This document shows positions 26,772 through 42,654 of a DNA stretch of 64,000 nt, piece by piece. A program made the translations under genes and the position numbers. The notes under the pieces were generated by a model. That model searched no databases, was not told where the DNA came from, and saw only the letters and a list, made by a program, of their open reading frames with translations. The stretch comes from Halobacteriales archaeon YIM A00010. GTDB lineage: Archaea; Halobacteriota; Halobacteria; Halobacteriales; Haloarculaceae. Each line of letters starts with the position of its first letter. Position 1 is the stretch's first letter. Where the stretch lies: contig JAKCFJ010000002.1 of NCBI GenBank assembly GCA_025041175.1, positions 186,001 to 250,000 of the forward strand, read 5' to 3'.

Positions 26772-26865
26772 GGCGTGCGGTGGGCGTGGTGAACACTAAA
26801 CGATTCGGGTGGCAAGGGCGTCCGGCTCCGGGATGCCTTACCGAGCGCAACGCAATCGTATTACT

Positions 26866-27330
26866 ATGAATGAAGGAGGGCAGGTCGAGCGGATTCACAT
26901 CGCACCCGAGCAGGGAGCGCCGGTCACGCCTGTCGACACAGCAGTGGCCGTCTCCCGGCGTGGGATCCGAGGCGATCGGTATTTTCGGGGGGACGGGACG
27001 TTCTCGGATCGACAGGGGTGTGACATCACGTTCATCGGATCGGAAGCCCTTGCTGCCGTGCAACACGAACTCGGCGTCAGTCTGGCGGCAGGGAGCCACC
27101 GCCGAAACGTGACGACACGCGGCATCGATCTGACCCGGCTCGTGGACGATCGGTTTCGGGTCGGCAGCGCTATCTGTGACGGCGTCGAGCGCTGTGAACC
27201 CTGTGCGTACCTGGAACAGCGTCTCGATCAGACCAGCCTTCGGAGCGCCATGGCTCACCGCGGCGGACTCCGAGCGACGATCGTCGATGGGGGTCCTATC
27301 TCGGTTGGAGACGAGATTCGGCTCCAGTGA
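26866..27330 (+). CDS. MOSC-domain protein
   Basis: The 154-residue protein is a stand-alone MOSC domain (named for the molybdenum cofactor sulfurase C-terminus). GIRGDRYF, NVTTRGIDL and the Cys motif GVERCEPCAYLEQ, followed by RGGLRATIVDGGPISVGDEI, are family signatures. Stand-alone MOSC proteins such as YiiM use molybdenum cofactor for reduction of N-hydroxylated compounds. The ATG shown follows an AT-rich tract; an upstream in-frame ATG would extend into the promoter. It lies 50 bases before the first ACWGT site, so its end is next to the ParA locus. Confidence 0.82.
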   Translation: MNEGGQVERIHIAPEQGAPVTPVDTAVAVSRRGIRGDRYFRGDGTFSDRQGCDITFIGSEALAAVQHELGVSLAAGSHRRNVTTRGIDLTRLVDDRFRVGSAICDGVERCEPCAYLEQRLDQTSLRSAMAHRGGLRATIVDGGPISVGDEIRLQ

Positions 27331-27401
27331 TGGTTCACCGAGTAGTCCCACGGAAGACATCCGTTCAGAAGCGTCTCGGTACATCAGTTCACACATCTAT
27401 A

Positions 27402-27556
27402 ACAGTGAATGAGTCTAGAACGGCGCAAACAGCTCCTACAGTATACACTGTACAAACGTTCTACTTCGGCAACAGGGTAGCTCCGGATCACACACTGCCA
27501 CCGTCAACAGTACAAGCAGCCCCAACAGTTCACACTGTACAAACAGTAGAAACAGT
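27402..27556. repeat. ACWGT pentamer cluster downstream of the ParA operon
   Basis: Eight exact ACTGT/ACAGT pentamers lie at 27402, 27438, 27447, 27507, 27525, 27534, 27543 and 27552. Six units from 27507 (one imperfect, GCAGC) are spaced at exactly 9 bp; four units at 27429-27460 keep the same period. ACWGT is its own reverse complement, so each unit is a palindromic half-site pair with a 4-base spacer. It ends 25 bases from the stop of the small partner gene. Confidence 0.8.
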
Positions 27557-27580
27557 AAAAGATGTGTGAGCGCTACCGGA

Positions 27581-27997
27581 TCAGGGAAGTTCCTCGGTGG
27601 CGTCGGGGTCGAGATCCCGCGCTTCGAGGACGAGCTGCGTCACTTCCCGCGGGTGCTCGTGAGCGAACCGCACCATCGCGTCGTGAGCTTCCCGAACCTC
27701 GAAATCGTTGTGGCCCAGCGCGATCATATCGTTCTCAACGCTGTTACACAGCACCTTGATGAACCGCGCGTTGTCCTCACTGGGGTAGATCGAGAGCTTC
27801 TCGCTCGTTTCGGCGGTGAACGCCGGACCGGCCGCGTCTTCCGTCTCTTCCGCGTCGGTCGTCTCTGCGTCGGTCGACGGATTGCTGTTTTCCGCTTCTG
27901 TAGGCTCGGTCTCGTCGGTCTGATCGTCGGCTTGCTCCTGGTCGTCCGTCCCCTCTTTCACTTGATCCAGCTGGTTTCGCAGATTACTACTGTCCAT
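27581..27997 (-). CDS. Small ParA-partner protein, 138 residues, unknown fold
   Basis: The start codon is one base after the ParA stop, so the two genes form one transcript. Residues 1-13 are polar, 14-57 are a disordered, extremely acidic linker (TDDQEQADDQTDETEPTEAE), and 60-130 form the folded part: EKLSIYPSEDNARFIKVLCNSVEND and DFEVREAHDAMVRFAHEHP. The folded part could contain a short strand followed by helices, as in ribbon-helix-helix partners of ParA, but I cannot confirm that. Position argues for a centromere-binding or adaptor protein that recognises the neighbouring ACWGT arrays. Confidence 0.7.
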   Translation of the reverse strand: MDSSNLRNQLDQVKEGTDDQEQADDQTDETEPTEAENSNPSTDAETTDAEETEDAAGPAFTAETSEKLSIYPSEDNARFIKVLCNSVENDMIALGHNDFEVREAHDAMVRFAHEHPREVTQLVLEARDLDPDATEELP

Positions 27998-27998
27998 A

Positions 27999-28862
27999 TT
28001 ACGCACGCTCCGCGACGATCTCTGCGAGTGTGTCGAAATGCTTGATCTGGTCGCACGAGGCGTCGTACTGCGCCACAGGTTCGTTGTTGGAGAACGAATC
28101 CGAAAGGGCGTCCCGTTCCCGAATGCCGGGGAGTGGGATGTCTCCCCGGCCGTTGGCGTCGATCTGCTCCCACTGCTCGTCGGTGATACGCGCATACGGG
28201 GGGAGATAGTCGGCCCAGTTCCTGTTGAGATCCTCGAGCAGACGGCGGTCGGGTTTGTTCGGCCGGATCGATTCGCTCAACATGTTCGGTGTAATCGCCA
28301 GAATGTCGGCTGCGCCGTCGGTCGCCTCGATGATCGGGAGGAGCTGTGATTCCATGATGCGTTCGAGACCACTGATGCTTCCCTGTCCAGGAATGACCGG
28401 AACGATGAAGCTCTGGGCAGCAACGAGCGCATTATCCGCCACTTTCGAGGGATCGCCGGGCGTATCCAACACAACGTACTCGTATCCATCCGCGCGCAAC
28501 GGATCGACGACCTCGTTTTTGAGGATGACGTCGGCGTTCATCTGATTTTTCATCCGATCGTTGATCGTAGACATTTCCGTGGAGCTGGGGACGACGCTGA
28601 ATCCACACTCCGTCTCGATGACGAGTTCGGATGGATGCGTGTCCCGGAAGATGACCTCTTCGAGGTGCCCGTTCTTGCTGTAAGCGTTCCCGAATCCGAG
28701 GAACTCCGTGCCGTGCCCGTTCTTGTCGACATCGACGTACACTGTTTCGCCGTAGTTCTCCTGAAGACGGTGTGCGAGGTTGATCGCGATTGTCGATTTC
28801 CCCATTCCGCCTTTCAAAATACAGACTGCAACGACGCCGTTTTGGGATGTTTGTGGTTTCAT
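27999..28862 (-). CDS. parA: ParA-family partition ATPase
   Basis: The 287-residue protein has the deviant Walker A motif KGGMGKST (residues 18-25, with the signature Lys), VYVDVDKNGHGTEFLG as the A' motif, EYVVLDTPGDPS as Walker B, and QSFIVPVIPGQGSISGLERI. ParA proteins form ATP-dependent gradients on DNA and move plasmids or chromosomes through a partner bound to a centromere. There is no N-terminal HTH, so it resembles the short, type Ib/Soj-like group. Sites GCTGT, ACTGT, ACTGT at 28877-28899 sit directly upstream of the start and may let its partner repress the operon. Confidence 0.85.
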   Translation of the reverse strand: MKPQTSQNGVVAVCILKGGMGKSTIAINLAHRLQENYGETVYVDVDKNGHGTEFLGFGNAYSKNGHLEEVIFRDTHPSELVIETECGFSVVPSSTEMSTINDRMKNQMNADVILKNEVVDPLRADGYEYVVLDTPGDPSKVADNALVAAQSFIVPVIPGQGSISGLERIMESQLLPIIEATDGAADILAITPNMLSESIRPNKPDRRLLEDLNRNWADYLPPYARITDEQWEQIDANGRGDIPLPGIRERDALSDSFSNNEPVAQYDASCDQIKHFDTLAEIVAERA

Positions 28863-28876
28863 AATGTGTGTTGAAT

Positions 28877-30044
28877 GCTGTGTATACTGTGCATACTGTG
28901 TACGAATCTTGTTGAGTACTGTATAAACGGTGTATGCCGTCGGTACATCATAATAATCCCGGTTTCCTCATCTCTCGTGCACCATACAAACAATAGTACA
29001 GTGTATACATCATACACTGTTTGAACTGTTTAGAATGTAATATACTCGTTATCCGTGACGGTTTAGAGCGTCTATACTGTTTGTACAGCATTCACATCGC
29101 AAAGAGTGTGGGAAGTTTAACTCTCATACTGCTCACACAGTAAGCGCTGTCTTTACCTGGGACAACGTGTGTACTGCGGGAGCTTCTTGTACTGTATACA
29201 CTGTATAGAACGCACGGATGTATGGAGCCACTGGTGCTACAGCTGTTTATGCAGTATAAACTGTGCTAACAGTACTGAATGCTCGTACGTTTACAAACGT
29301 GGGAACAGTCACGTGGGTAGCGATTGAGAGTGTCATAACGCTACGACAGTAAGCACTGTTTATATCGATGAGACAGTTAGTACGGTGTGTACAGTGTAGA
29401 CATCTGTCGTGTGTAGATTGGTGTTCCTTCAGTCGGCTTTCTGGGACCGACTACCGACAGTTATACTGTCGGTTATGGACCGTCGACCACGCAGTTGCCC
29501 GCTCACCACGCGTCCCATCGCCGCAACACAGACCACCGTCGCCCGCACGTCAGTATGACTGACGGTATTAACGCAGTGTGTCTGTAGTGGTGATGTGCAT
29601 ACTGTACTAGCATGGTATGTTTCTAGGTTCACAGCTGAACCGTGCATCCGGTATCTACTGTGTAAACATCTCATACAGTTAGCACAGTACTGGGGAAGTA
29701 GTACGGTCGTTCAACTGTTTGCACTGTTTATACAGTACTTAATTCGTGTACTTCTCTCTCACCCACGCATCGCCCTCATCGAGGGTATGGATTTGAAGGC
29801 GTACGGTTTACACTGTATAAACTGCTAATACTGTATGTGATTCTATCAATGTGTTCACTGTAACAGACGTTCGGACAGTGTCCTCATCGCACTTTCTATA
29901 CAGCGTTGGAGGTGGACACTGTTTCAACAGTACAAACGTTACATACTGTGAATGTGCAGTGCGCGCGGTCGTTGGGTGATACACAGTTCCCACATTGTAT
30001 ACTGTAGATACAGCACAAACTGTTTATACTGTGCTAAACGCTGT
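28877..30044. repeat. Large ACWGT array upstream of parA with 9-bp phasing
   Basis: I count 37 exact ACTGT or ACAGT pentamers here, against roughly 2-3 expected by chance. Most lie in short runs on a strict 9-bp lattice, with degenerate units (GCTGT, ACGTT, ACATC, ACGGT) filling intermediate positions. Clear runs are 28998-29038, 29242-29273, 29346-29404, 29714-29736, 29803-29834, 29918-29949 and 29983-30041 (seven units). The consensus is RCWGT with a 4-base spacer. The stretch is AT-rich and carries no credible gene, so it looks like a centromere or origin-type locus. Confidence 0.82.
29454..29564. repeat. Two perfect palindromes in the site-poor core of the array
   Basis: CCGACAGTTATACTGTCGG at 29454-29472 is a perfect palindrome with 8-bp arms. 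CGTCAGTATGACTGACG at 29548-29564 is another, with 7-bp arms. They flank a GC-richer segment (29410-29600) almost free of 9-bp lattice units. The first contains two ACWGT pentamers at 8-bp rather than 9-bp spacing. Confidence 0.65.
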
Positions 30045-30106
30045 AAGCGTATTCACATCTCACACCGGGAGAACATCATATGGACCGTACGTACCGGCTG
30101 GACAGT

Positions 30107-39835: not shown

Positions 39836-39903
39836 ACCCTGTTGTTAGGGACGCGATGCTTAAAGAGGTGACTTGGCTGACGAAAAGAGGATGATTCGGA
39901 CGA

Positions 39904-40087
39904 ACAGCGTATACAGTGTAAACAGTACGAACAGTGCTGCGTCAACGCTGTCTCTTCCCCGCTACGCGGGCGATCCGGAGACCGCTCGAACTCGTAGAAG
40001 CCGATGGCCGAGGTGTCTCACTACAACCACAGGCCGCACAGTTCGCACGTTTTACAACGCTGGCACTGTATACGATGTCGATACTGT
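39904..40087. repeat. Second ACWGT cluster, 10 kb from the ParA locus
   Basis: Four units at 39904-39935 (ACAGC, ACAGT, ACAGT, ACAGT) and six at 40038-40087 (ACAGT, ACGTT, AACGC, ACTGT, GATGT, ACTGT) lie on 9-bp spacing. The two runs are not in the same phase. No gene occupies this interval. Confidence 0.75.
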
Positions 40088-40183
40088 GCTTATGGACCTA
40101 TAACATCACTTAGCCAATAACATAACAATAAAAATATTTTTCAAAATGACTATCTACCCCCCTGTAGACAACACTACTGTGCT

Positions 40184-40846: not shown

Positions 40847-41209
40847 GACACACCCCCTCGTTCGGAATGAGATAGCAACCTCTGCACCATCGTATGAGGA
40901 GTCGTATCTCCACTTGGTCAGAAGGATTACCGTGCTGAATCGTGCACAGGCGCGCTCGTCATACGATACTACCACCCTAGCTTTGAGGATAGAATTGCTG
41001 TACTTCCCGTGTTAGGCGTATTCGAGAATACTTCTAACTAGTGACGTATTCTACTTGTGGAAATATTGGAGTTACTAAGTAATAAATCCAAGAGATAGCT
41101 ACGCAACTTCTGTGATATACTAGAGTAAATGGTTAGCAGCTAGGAACAGTACAGCACTGTCGCCATACAGTCAACTATACGGGATCTCATTCCGAATCAG
41201 GGGAGTGTC
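40847..41209. mobile_element. MITE-like element with 26-27 bp terminal inverted repeats
   Basis: The left end (40847-40873, beginning GACACACCCCC and ending TTCGGAATGAGAT) and right end (41184-41209, ATCTCATTCCGAA then TCAGGGGAGTGTC) are inverted copies with 13 identical bases at the inner side and matches outside. The 363-bp interior has no gene. That is the form of a miniature inverted-repeat transposable element mobilised by some insertion sequence. I see no clear target duplication. Confidence 0.6.
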
Positions 41210-41274
41210 CGGTCCTCTGGGACAGTAACAAGCTCACTCCACATCAGCAACTACTGTTCAGCCGTGGGAGGACG

Positions 41275-42654
41275 TCAAGCGTCTACAGCGATGACGTTGC
41301 GGGGTTCAGATGGCCGATCGGCGGAGGCATCGCTGTTATCAGTGTCGACGAATTGAACATTGACAACCACGTCGTAGTCGGTTTGGTCGGCGAGCCGTCG
41401 TGCGAGCGTCGTCGCCAGCGTTGGGTACGCGGCTTCGACGGGACGGTTGACTGTCACCTCCACGTGAATCGGTGTTCGGTGTCCAGCGCCGACTACGTCG
41501 AACGCGATGGCCGTTTCACTCGATCGTACCGTCGTTGTCTGCAGCGACAGCTCCTGATACGGTTGTTCATCGAGCGTCTCACGGACGGTTGCTGTCGACT
41601 CCTGTTCGATCGTCGACTGCTGGTAGGTGAGATACGTAACGCCACCCAGAAACACCGAGAGAGCGATGAGAGCGAGGGCGAGGACACGGAGTCGGCGTCG
41701 CATCGTGGCTTTGGCTGCATCGATATCCGTCGATCGCAGGGGACGGTAATCGAGGAACCAGAACACCACGAGCGCAGCGAGGTTGATCGACAGCACGTTC
41801 ACGAACAACAGGACTCCCGAGCCGAGGCTCACGATGGGCTGTCCCCAGGCGAGTCCGATACCCACAGTCGCAGCCGGTGGAATGAGCGCCACGGTGATCA
41901 TCACCCCGACGAGCGCCACACTGGATCCGGTTGCGAGGCTGATCGCGCCGGCAACACCTGCCCCGAGCGCGACCGCGAGAGAGAGAAAAGCCGGGGCGAG
42001 CCGGCTTTGTATCTCGGGAATTTCAGTGATAGCGGTCCCGGGCGGCATCAGCCCGGTGAATCGAACGATCGTCCCGAAGACGGCTGCGCTCGTGATTGCG
42101 AGCGCGAGCCCGAACGCCTGCAACCGCACACCACGCGTTGTCAACCCCCTATCGTCGATAACAGTTCCCACGGACGCGGCCATCGCCGGACCGACCAGCG
42201 GCGCGATCACCATCGATCCGACGACAACAGCGGCCGAGTCCTGGAGAAGTCCCACGGTTGCCACCACTGCACTGACGGCGGTCATCGCCACGTACGACCA
42301 GCGCTCTGCTCGCTCGGGGGCGAGGTCTTCGGCTGCCGTTTGGAGTTCCTCCCGAGGGGTGCGTCCCGGATGGACGGCTTGAGCAGTGTCCGCTTCGCGC
42401 TGTCGTTCGAATCGGTCGGAGACGATGGTTTTGGCGTCGAGCACCACAGTCCACGCCTCCTCTGAAAGCCCGATCTCCTCGAATCGGTCGATCGTCCGTT
42501 CGATATCATCCAACGGAAGCGGAAACGACACCACCGCCTCGTATCGATCCTCGCTCGATTCGTCAGTGACAGCGTAGTCGACTCCCTCAGCATCAAGCAC
42601 GGCGAGAACGTCCTCACGCTTTCCAACCGGAATCGACACCTGCACAAAGCGCAT
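41275..42654 (-). CDS. DUF389 (TIGR00341-type) membrane protein
   Basis: The 459-residue protein has an N-terminal ferredoxin-like domain (MRFVQVSIPVGKREDVLAVLDAEGVDY) at residues 1-75, then about ten helices with the DUF389 core SAVVATVGLLQDSAAVVVGSMVIAPLVGPAMA and LATGSSVALVGVMITVALIPPAATVGIG, and a C-terminal soluble part. Function of the family is unknown. The ATG of MRFVQVS is preferred over an upstream ATG because the extension has no homology-like character. Confidence 0.8.
   Translation of the reverse strand: MRFVQVSIPVGKREDVLAVLDAEGVDYAVTDESSEDRYEAVVSFPLPLDDIERTIDRFEEIGLSEEAWTVVLDAKTIVSDRFERQREADTAQAVHPGRTPREELQTAAEDLAPERAERWSYVAMTAVSAVVATVGLLQDSAAVVVGSMVIAPLVGPAMAASVGTVIDDRGLTTRGVRLQAFGLALAITSAAVFGTIVRFTGLMPPGTAITEIPEIQSRLAPAFLSLAVALGAGVAGAISLATGSSVALVGVMITVALIPPAATVGIGLAWGQPIVSLGSGVLLFVNVLSINLAALVVFWFLDYRPLRSTDIDAAKATMRRRLRVLALALIALSVFLGGVTYLTYQQSTIEQESTATVRETLDEQPYQELSLQTTTVRSSETAIAFDVVGAGHRTPIHVEVTVNRPVEAAYPTLATTLARRLADQTDYDVVVNVQFVDTDNSDASADRPSEPRNVIAVDA

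Follow-up and report, generated by a model that had tools for sequence, protein, structure and literature searches.

A haloarchaeal parA gene pair flanked by palindromic units on a 9-bp lattice: a candidate partition module with a predicted centromere

INTRODUCTION

The ParA partition systems of type Ib, such as delta-omega of pSM19035 and ParF-ParG of TP228, combine a ParA without an N-terminal DNA-binding domain with a small partner protein encoded directly downstream, which has a flexible N-terminus and a folded C-terminal domain. Short tandem repeats stand upstream of the operon, and the centromeres overlap promoters. In pSM19035, each site consists of 7 to 10 non-palindromic repeats of 7 bp (PMC9499535). 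Among archaea, the SegAB system of the Sulfolobales pairs a ParA with a small DNA-binding partner, SegB, whose sites are scattered over the replicon. Each site is a single 13-bp palindrome, TCTAGASTCTAGA, and most are located within genes (PMC12284271). The archaeal plasmid pNOB8 has a three-protein system, AspA-ParB-ParA, in which a single 23-bp palindrome is the nucleation site and AspA spreads on the DNA (PMC5120986). A review from 2016 counted among the open questions how halophilic archaea segregate their many replicons together and what form archaeal centromeres take (PMC5120986). Our own search of the open-access literature found no account of haloarchaeal ParA centromeres.

Here we analyze a window of 64,000 bp (bases 186001 to 250000 of the 1.02-Mb contig C2) from the genome of Halobacteriales archaeon YIM A00010, which comprises 5.97 Mb in seven contigs. 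The window contains a parA gene and a small partner gene between arrays of ACWGT pentamers. The locus shares the type Ib traits listed above, with the flexible N-terminus and the folded C-terminal domain of the partner and the centromere role of the repeats being predictions here. It differs from pSM19035 in its 9-bp units, which are palindromic in many groups, extend over 1.2 kb and into satellites, and have many different cores, and it differs from type Ib in general because the partner is not recognizable as a ribbon-helix-helix protein by any Pfam or PDB match. With SegAB it has in common an archaeal ParA, a small partner (here predicted to bind DNA) and sites scattered over the replicon, but SegAB has no lattice, whereas here R.ACWGT.Y units rather than TCTAGASTCTAGA stand at 9-bp phase in mostly intergenic arrays. 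The pNOB8 system is likewise an archaeal plasmid partition system with a ParA, but the present module has two genes and repeated sites. Unlike type Ia and chromosomal ParABS systems, it has no partner of the ParB family (CTPase, HTH) by any Pfam or NCBIfam match. The module probably belongs with tandem-repeat ParA partition, and there is a substantial chance that its partner represents a new class.

RESULTS

The parA gene (27999..28862, minus strand) encodes a ParA/Soj-like deviant Walker A ATPase of 287 amino acids that matches the Pfam family AAA_31 (1.2e-25). Its deviant Walker A motif, KGGMGKS, is already reached at about residues 17 to 23 of 287, leaving no N-terminal DNA-binding extension. 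The partner gene (27581..27997, minus strand; 138 amino acids) begins 1 bp past the parA stop. An earlier reading based on the sequence alone (the sequence-only reading) had described a Soj-like ParA and a 138-residue partner in a tight operon, and the AAA_31 match, the 1-bp gap and the common strand agree with this. An Rfam search of the array and par region gave zero matches. Most likely, the genes and arrays form the ParA-type partition module of the 1.02-Mb secondary replicon. Close ParA orthologs are found in Halocatena and on chromosome 2 of 'Actinarchaeum halophilum' YIM 93972. The record of the latter (CP071307.1, locus L010) is titled Actinarchaeum halophilum, and its chromosome 2 ParA is 91% identical to the ParA of the Halocatena-like genome studied here; name and relationship seem to be at odds.

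Between positions 26900 and 30500 there are 48 exact ACWGT units, an approximately fivefold excess over 300 dinucleotide shuffles (mean, 10.0; maximum, 18). All but 2 lie outside parA and the partner gene, and the 46 outside correspond well to the roughly 45 pentamers that had been reported to flank the operon on both sides. The exact 9-bp spacing also held against shuffled sequence, with 14 pairs at lag 9, whereas the shuffles averaged 0.013 and never exceeded 1; an excess was also present at lags 18 and 27, and of the 44 spacings between successive units, 28 are divisible by 9 (binomial p = 1.3e-16). At 9 and 18 bp from the units, the A, C, G and T positions keep the consensus base in 51 to 69% of cases. 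As A-C-x-G-T is kept in most cases at these offsets, degenerate units occupy the intervening positions of the lattice, again as proposed. When centered, the unit is a 9-bp near-palindrome, R.ACWGT.Y.

A lattice scan located a downstream array at 27382..27567, with 8 exact ACWGT units and 6 of 7 spacings that are multiples of 9, and an upstream array of about 1.2 kb at 28875..30079, which abuts the parA start, contains 37 exact units in a series of sub-arrays and is the predicted centromere and operator. The extent given in the sequence-only reading was thus confirmed, except that the scan sets slightly wider limits and further arrays are present elsewhere on the replicon. The upstream array includes a non-lattice block, AAACCGGGATTATTATGATGTACC (28942..28965, minus strand), which resembles a promoter element and is a candidate parA promoter. 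Its core, CCGGGATTATTATGATGT, is found in most Halocatena orthologs and was not seen in the L011/L018 pair. Another local excess of ACWGT, at 41000-41500 of the window (6 per 500 bp), was not flagged by the lattice scan.

We scanned all of C2 with a symmetric profile, using reversed C2 and Markov sequence as nulls. The par arrays scored 26 to 61 and other arrays on C2 scored 27 to 53, while the nulls reached at most 25 (reversed C2) and 21 (Markov sequence). One such satellite is in the window, in intergenic DNA 10 kb from the par locus, and consists of two halves (39902..39937, score 34, and 40036..40089, score 31); others are found at C2 positions 441620-441682, 447282-447362 and 1001297-1001388. 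Satellites sit between genes or at a gene end and are mostly intergenic, and one is located just upstream of an acyl-CoA dehydrogenase-like gene. Apart from the par locus, triples of ACWGT are present at 4 places on C2 (1.02 Mb), at 1 place on the 2.86-Mb chromosome and at 1 place on C3. A satellite shared by two related species, located about 22.6 kb from the par locus, retains all four of its units; 20 of 20 aligned core bases are identical, while the spacers differ and the intergenic surroundings hardly align. The gene that precedes the satellite at C2 1001297 apparently also precedes satellites in two other species, as the C-terminal protein sequences match.

The lattice is conserved among close relatives. 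All ten orthologous loci (L009 to L018) carry an ACWGT lattice with peaks at lags 9, 18 and 27, although they represent fewer than ten independent cases, because one is the window's own locus once more and some others are two records of a single species. The expectation that haloarchaeal relatives of the partner would be accompanied by ACWGT(N4) runs was borne out at every Halocatena ortholog examined. In pairwise upstream alignments, the AC.GT core bases are 68 to 95% identical compared to 39 to 76% for the center and spacer positions, which can be taken as supporting evidence only, because the aligner may anchor on the cores.

To this we added 60 further ParA loci from across the window's order. 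Distant homologs, with 26 to 34% partner identity, have no ACWGT lattice, and base-identity autocorrelation upstream of these genes appears at 9, 18, 27 and 36 bp. The sequence-only reading had named homologous ParA pairs without such arrays as evidence against it; such pairs did not turn up in the form foreseen, as the distant homologs lack ACWGT but have a 9-bp lattice with another core. ACWGT was accordingly rejected as the general motif, most distant homologs having other cores. Upstream of parA, lag 9 was the best among lags 5 to 17 in 84 of the 94 scorable distinct loci, with a mean score of 6.1 versus at most 1.5 at any other lag (1.5 at lag 6 and no more than 0.8 elsewhere). A second method, in which a repeat unit of fixed width is learned, gave width 9 as the best in 77 of 91 loci; 77 of the 91 loci also scored above the highest null score, and the median score was 114 at width 9 compared to 27 to 52 at widths 7, 8 and 10 to 12 and 33 for the null. 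Coding periodicity as the cause was rejected, since random C2 segments raise lags 6, 9, 12 and 15 jointly, whereas upstream of parA lag 9 is far higher than any other.

The learned repeat unit is dyad symmetric (median r of 0.73 versus 0.34 for the null). Dyad symmetry is low in the RPFYAR group and in part of the RPLYAR group, for which the picture of a symmetric dimer may fail. Cores vary by subfamily and include ACnGT, CTnAG, CTAnnnTAG, CTATTC and others; the learned unit is R.AC.GT.Y in the KKTVYV group, RSA.WATSY-like in the MHGFYV group, CTA...TAG in one RPLYAR group and ACCTnAGGT at locus L206. On plasmid pNRC100 of Halobacterium salinarum, CTATTCNNN stands at 9-bp phase upstream of the ParA gene. 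The 9-bp lattice module is common in haloarchaea and occurs on a Halobacterium plasmid, and the shared spacing with differing palindromes suggests a class of archaeal centromere that has not been described before. Lag and upstream examination showed slight or no lattice at L157, L180, L190 and L216. Several RPFYAR loci that seemingly had no lattice turned out to reflect a start-codon artifact, as the lattice is located between the picked and the annotated start (for example, in pNRC100). Among 295 genomes sampled from the phylum, matches to the partner profile were confined to the window's order, apart from one marginal match.

The partner, which is acidic at 91 of 96 loci, has a predicted layout of an N-terminal helix (residues 4 to 15), a disordered acidic linker (about 19 to 53) and a C-terminal helical domain (57 to 138), in which an extended segment (about 64 to 73) is followed by a helix (74 to 93; AlphaFold2, mean pLDDT of 95). 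Searches against Pfam and NCBIfam gave zero matches, no relative was found in the PDB by sequence or fold, and Foldseek, run with the full-length partner and with the domain, matched no known DNA-binding fold. The extended segment with its following helices and the alternate strand residues that track the motif would suit the ribbon-helix-helix protein hinted at earlier, but this assignment has no Pfam or PDB match behind it. The majority N-terminal consensus of the partners is PFxDL and not an arginine-rich tail, so activation of ParA may differ from that in type Ib. K or R is present within the first 18 residues in 46 of 91 partners and in none of the other 45, indicating that the arginine-finger mechanism of type Ib may not apply.

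We set the similarity of motifs between loci against residue identity per alignment column, corrected for overall identity, at four redundancy levels, the strictest of which retained 19 representatives. Partner columns 69 and 67 rank top at all four levels, and column 65 joins them at the looser ones. Family-wise p values for the partner columns were 0.002 to 0.04 at three levels and at least 0.26 at the strictest (19 representatives), and these values are indicative only, because the shared ancestry of the loci is corrected only in part. Among ParA columns there was no consistent winner across levels, column 207 being significant at two of the four. Residues 65, 67 and 69 are alternate positions on the predicted extended strand before helix 74-93. 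Loci with S or T at position 69 mostly have ACnGT-like units, and those with Q67 and A or P at 69 mostly have CTA- or CTnAG-like units. Ribbon-helix-helix proteins read DNA via alternate strand residues in the major groove. That motif and strand residues co-vary speaks for the partner as the protein that reads the array.

DISCUSSION

The lattice described here is conserved and has diversified, and it co-varies with residues on one strand of the partner. We consider it highly probable that the locus is a ParA partition module in which the partner binds the 9-bp lattice as the centromere and probably also as the operator. The sequence-only reading had likewise proposed a partition system, and the comparative tests favor it, with partner binding, centromere activity and autoregulation as its predicted components. 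Binding, dimer geometry, stimulation of ParA, segregation and autorepression are what we infer, in the following way. A partner dimer would occupy each unit, and neighbors would stack side by side every 9 bp. DNA has about 10.5 bp per turn, so that by geometry each 9-bp step would rotate the next dimer by about -51 degrees, and about seven steps would take the dimers once round the DNA. The stacked dimers would coat the arrays to build the partition complex, both at the par locus and at a small number of satellites. The acidic flexible linker and the N-terminal segment could then reach nucleoid-bound ParA-ATP and trigger its release, by which the replicon would move. As the array adjoins the start of parA, partner bound there would be expected to act as a repressor of the operon as well. 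Other haloarchaeal replicons would share the 9-bp architecture but have cores of their own, recognized by strands that have diverged, which would allow the replicons of one cell to avoid cross-reaction.

The array might instead be an operator only, where the partner autorepresses the parA operon and regulates a few other genes and segregation proceeds via another site. The array adjoins parA, the satellites are mostly intergenic (such as the one upstream of the acyl-CoA dehydrogenase-like gene), and type Ib partner proteins double as repressors (PMC5016525). However, 1.2 kb with dozens of units flanking the operon is more than an operator needs, one of the conserved satellites is at a gene's 3' end, and the outside triples are concentrated on the par replicon, with 4 places in its 1.02 Mb and a single one in the 2.86 Mb of the chromosome; we regard this explanation as unlikely. 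It is highly unlikely that the array is read by ParA itself or by an unlinked host protein. Column 207 of ParA would fit such a reader at two of four redundancy levels, but the ParA signals shift between levels, whereas partner columns 69 and 67 come first or second at all four, and ParA has no N-terminal extension for DNA binding. The least likely explanation, to which we give hardly any weight, is that the lattice is a replication origin. The nearest Orc1/Cdc6 gene on the window's replicon is about 31 kb away, the motif tracks residues of the partner, and the period is constant at 9 bp with a variable core, even though repeat arrays beside plasmid maintenance genes are often iterons and the Cdc6 gene of pNRC100 is located 2.7 kb from parA.

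If the partner does bind the lattice as the centromere of a partition module, the locus is a candidate answer to the questions of how halophilic archaea segregate their replicons and what their centromeres are, and one that can be read from the sequence in many haloarchaeal genomes. It is possible, with somewhat less than an even chance in our estimation, that haloarchaea have a ParA partition class of their own, with an unclassified partner family, a DNA-binding dimer absent from solved structures, an invariant 9-bp lattice and a specificity code in the strand residues that separates replicons. The lattice extends to a genetic model, H. salinarum, through pNRC100. The loci also offer a natural series of related candidate DNA readers together with their targets, in which the period is fixed and the core is varied, which could serve to work out the recognition code between strand and bases and replicon incompatibility.

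The partner profile identifies four modules in the genome studied here, on C2, on C3 and twice on C6. Their motifs score 165, 140, 57 and 79 on their own arrays and at most 27 on the others, and motifs that fail to match each other in this way would be needed for specific partition of replicons that share a cell. Three further ParA-family matches are found on C4 and C7 (L004, L006 and L008), where the scan showed no open reading frame with KGGxGK. The 219-kb contig C6 has two complete par modules (at 26838 and 166424) whose lattice motifs differ, suggesting a fused replicon. At L003 on C6 (880-1120), a CTnAG-like 9-bp pattern runs on into the part of the partner gene that encodes the acidic linker, and this DNA may therefore double as part of the array.
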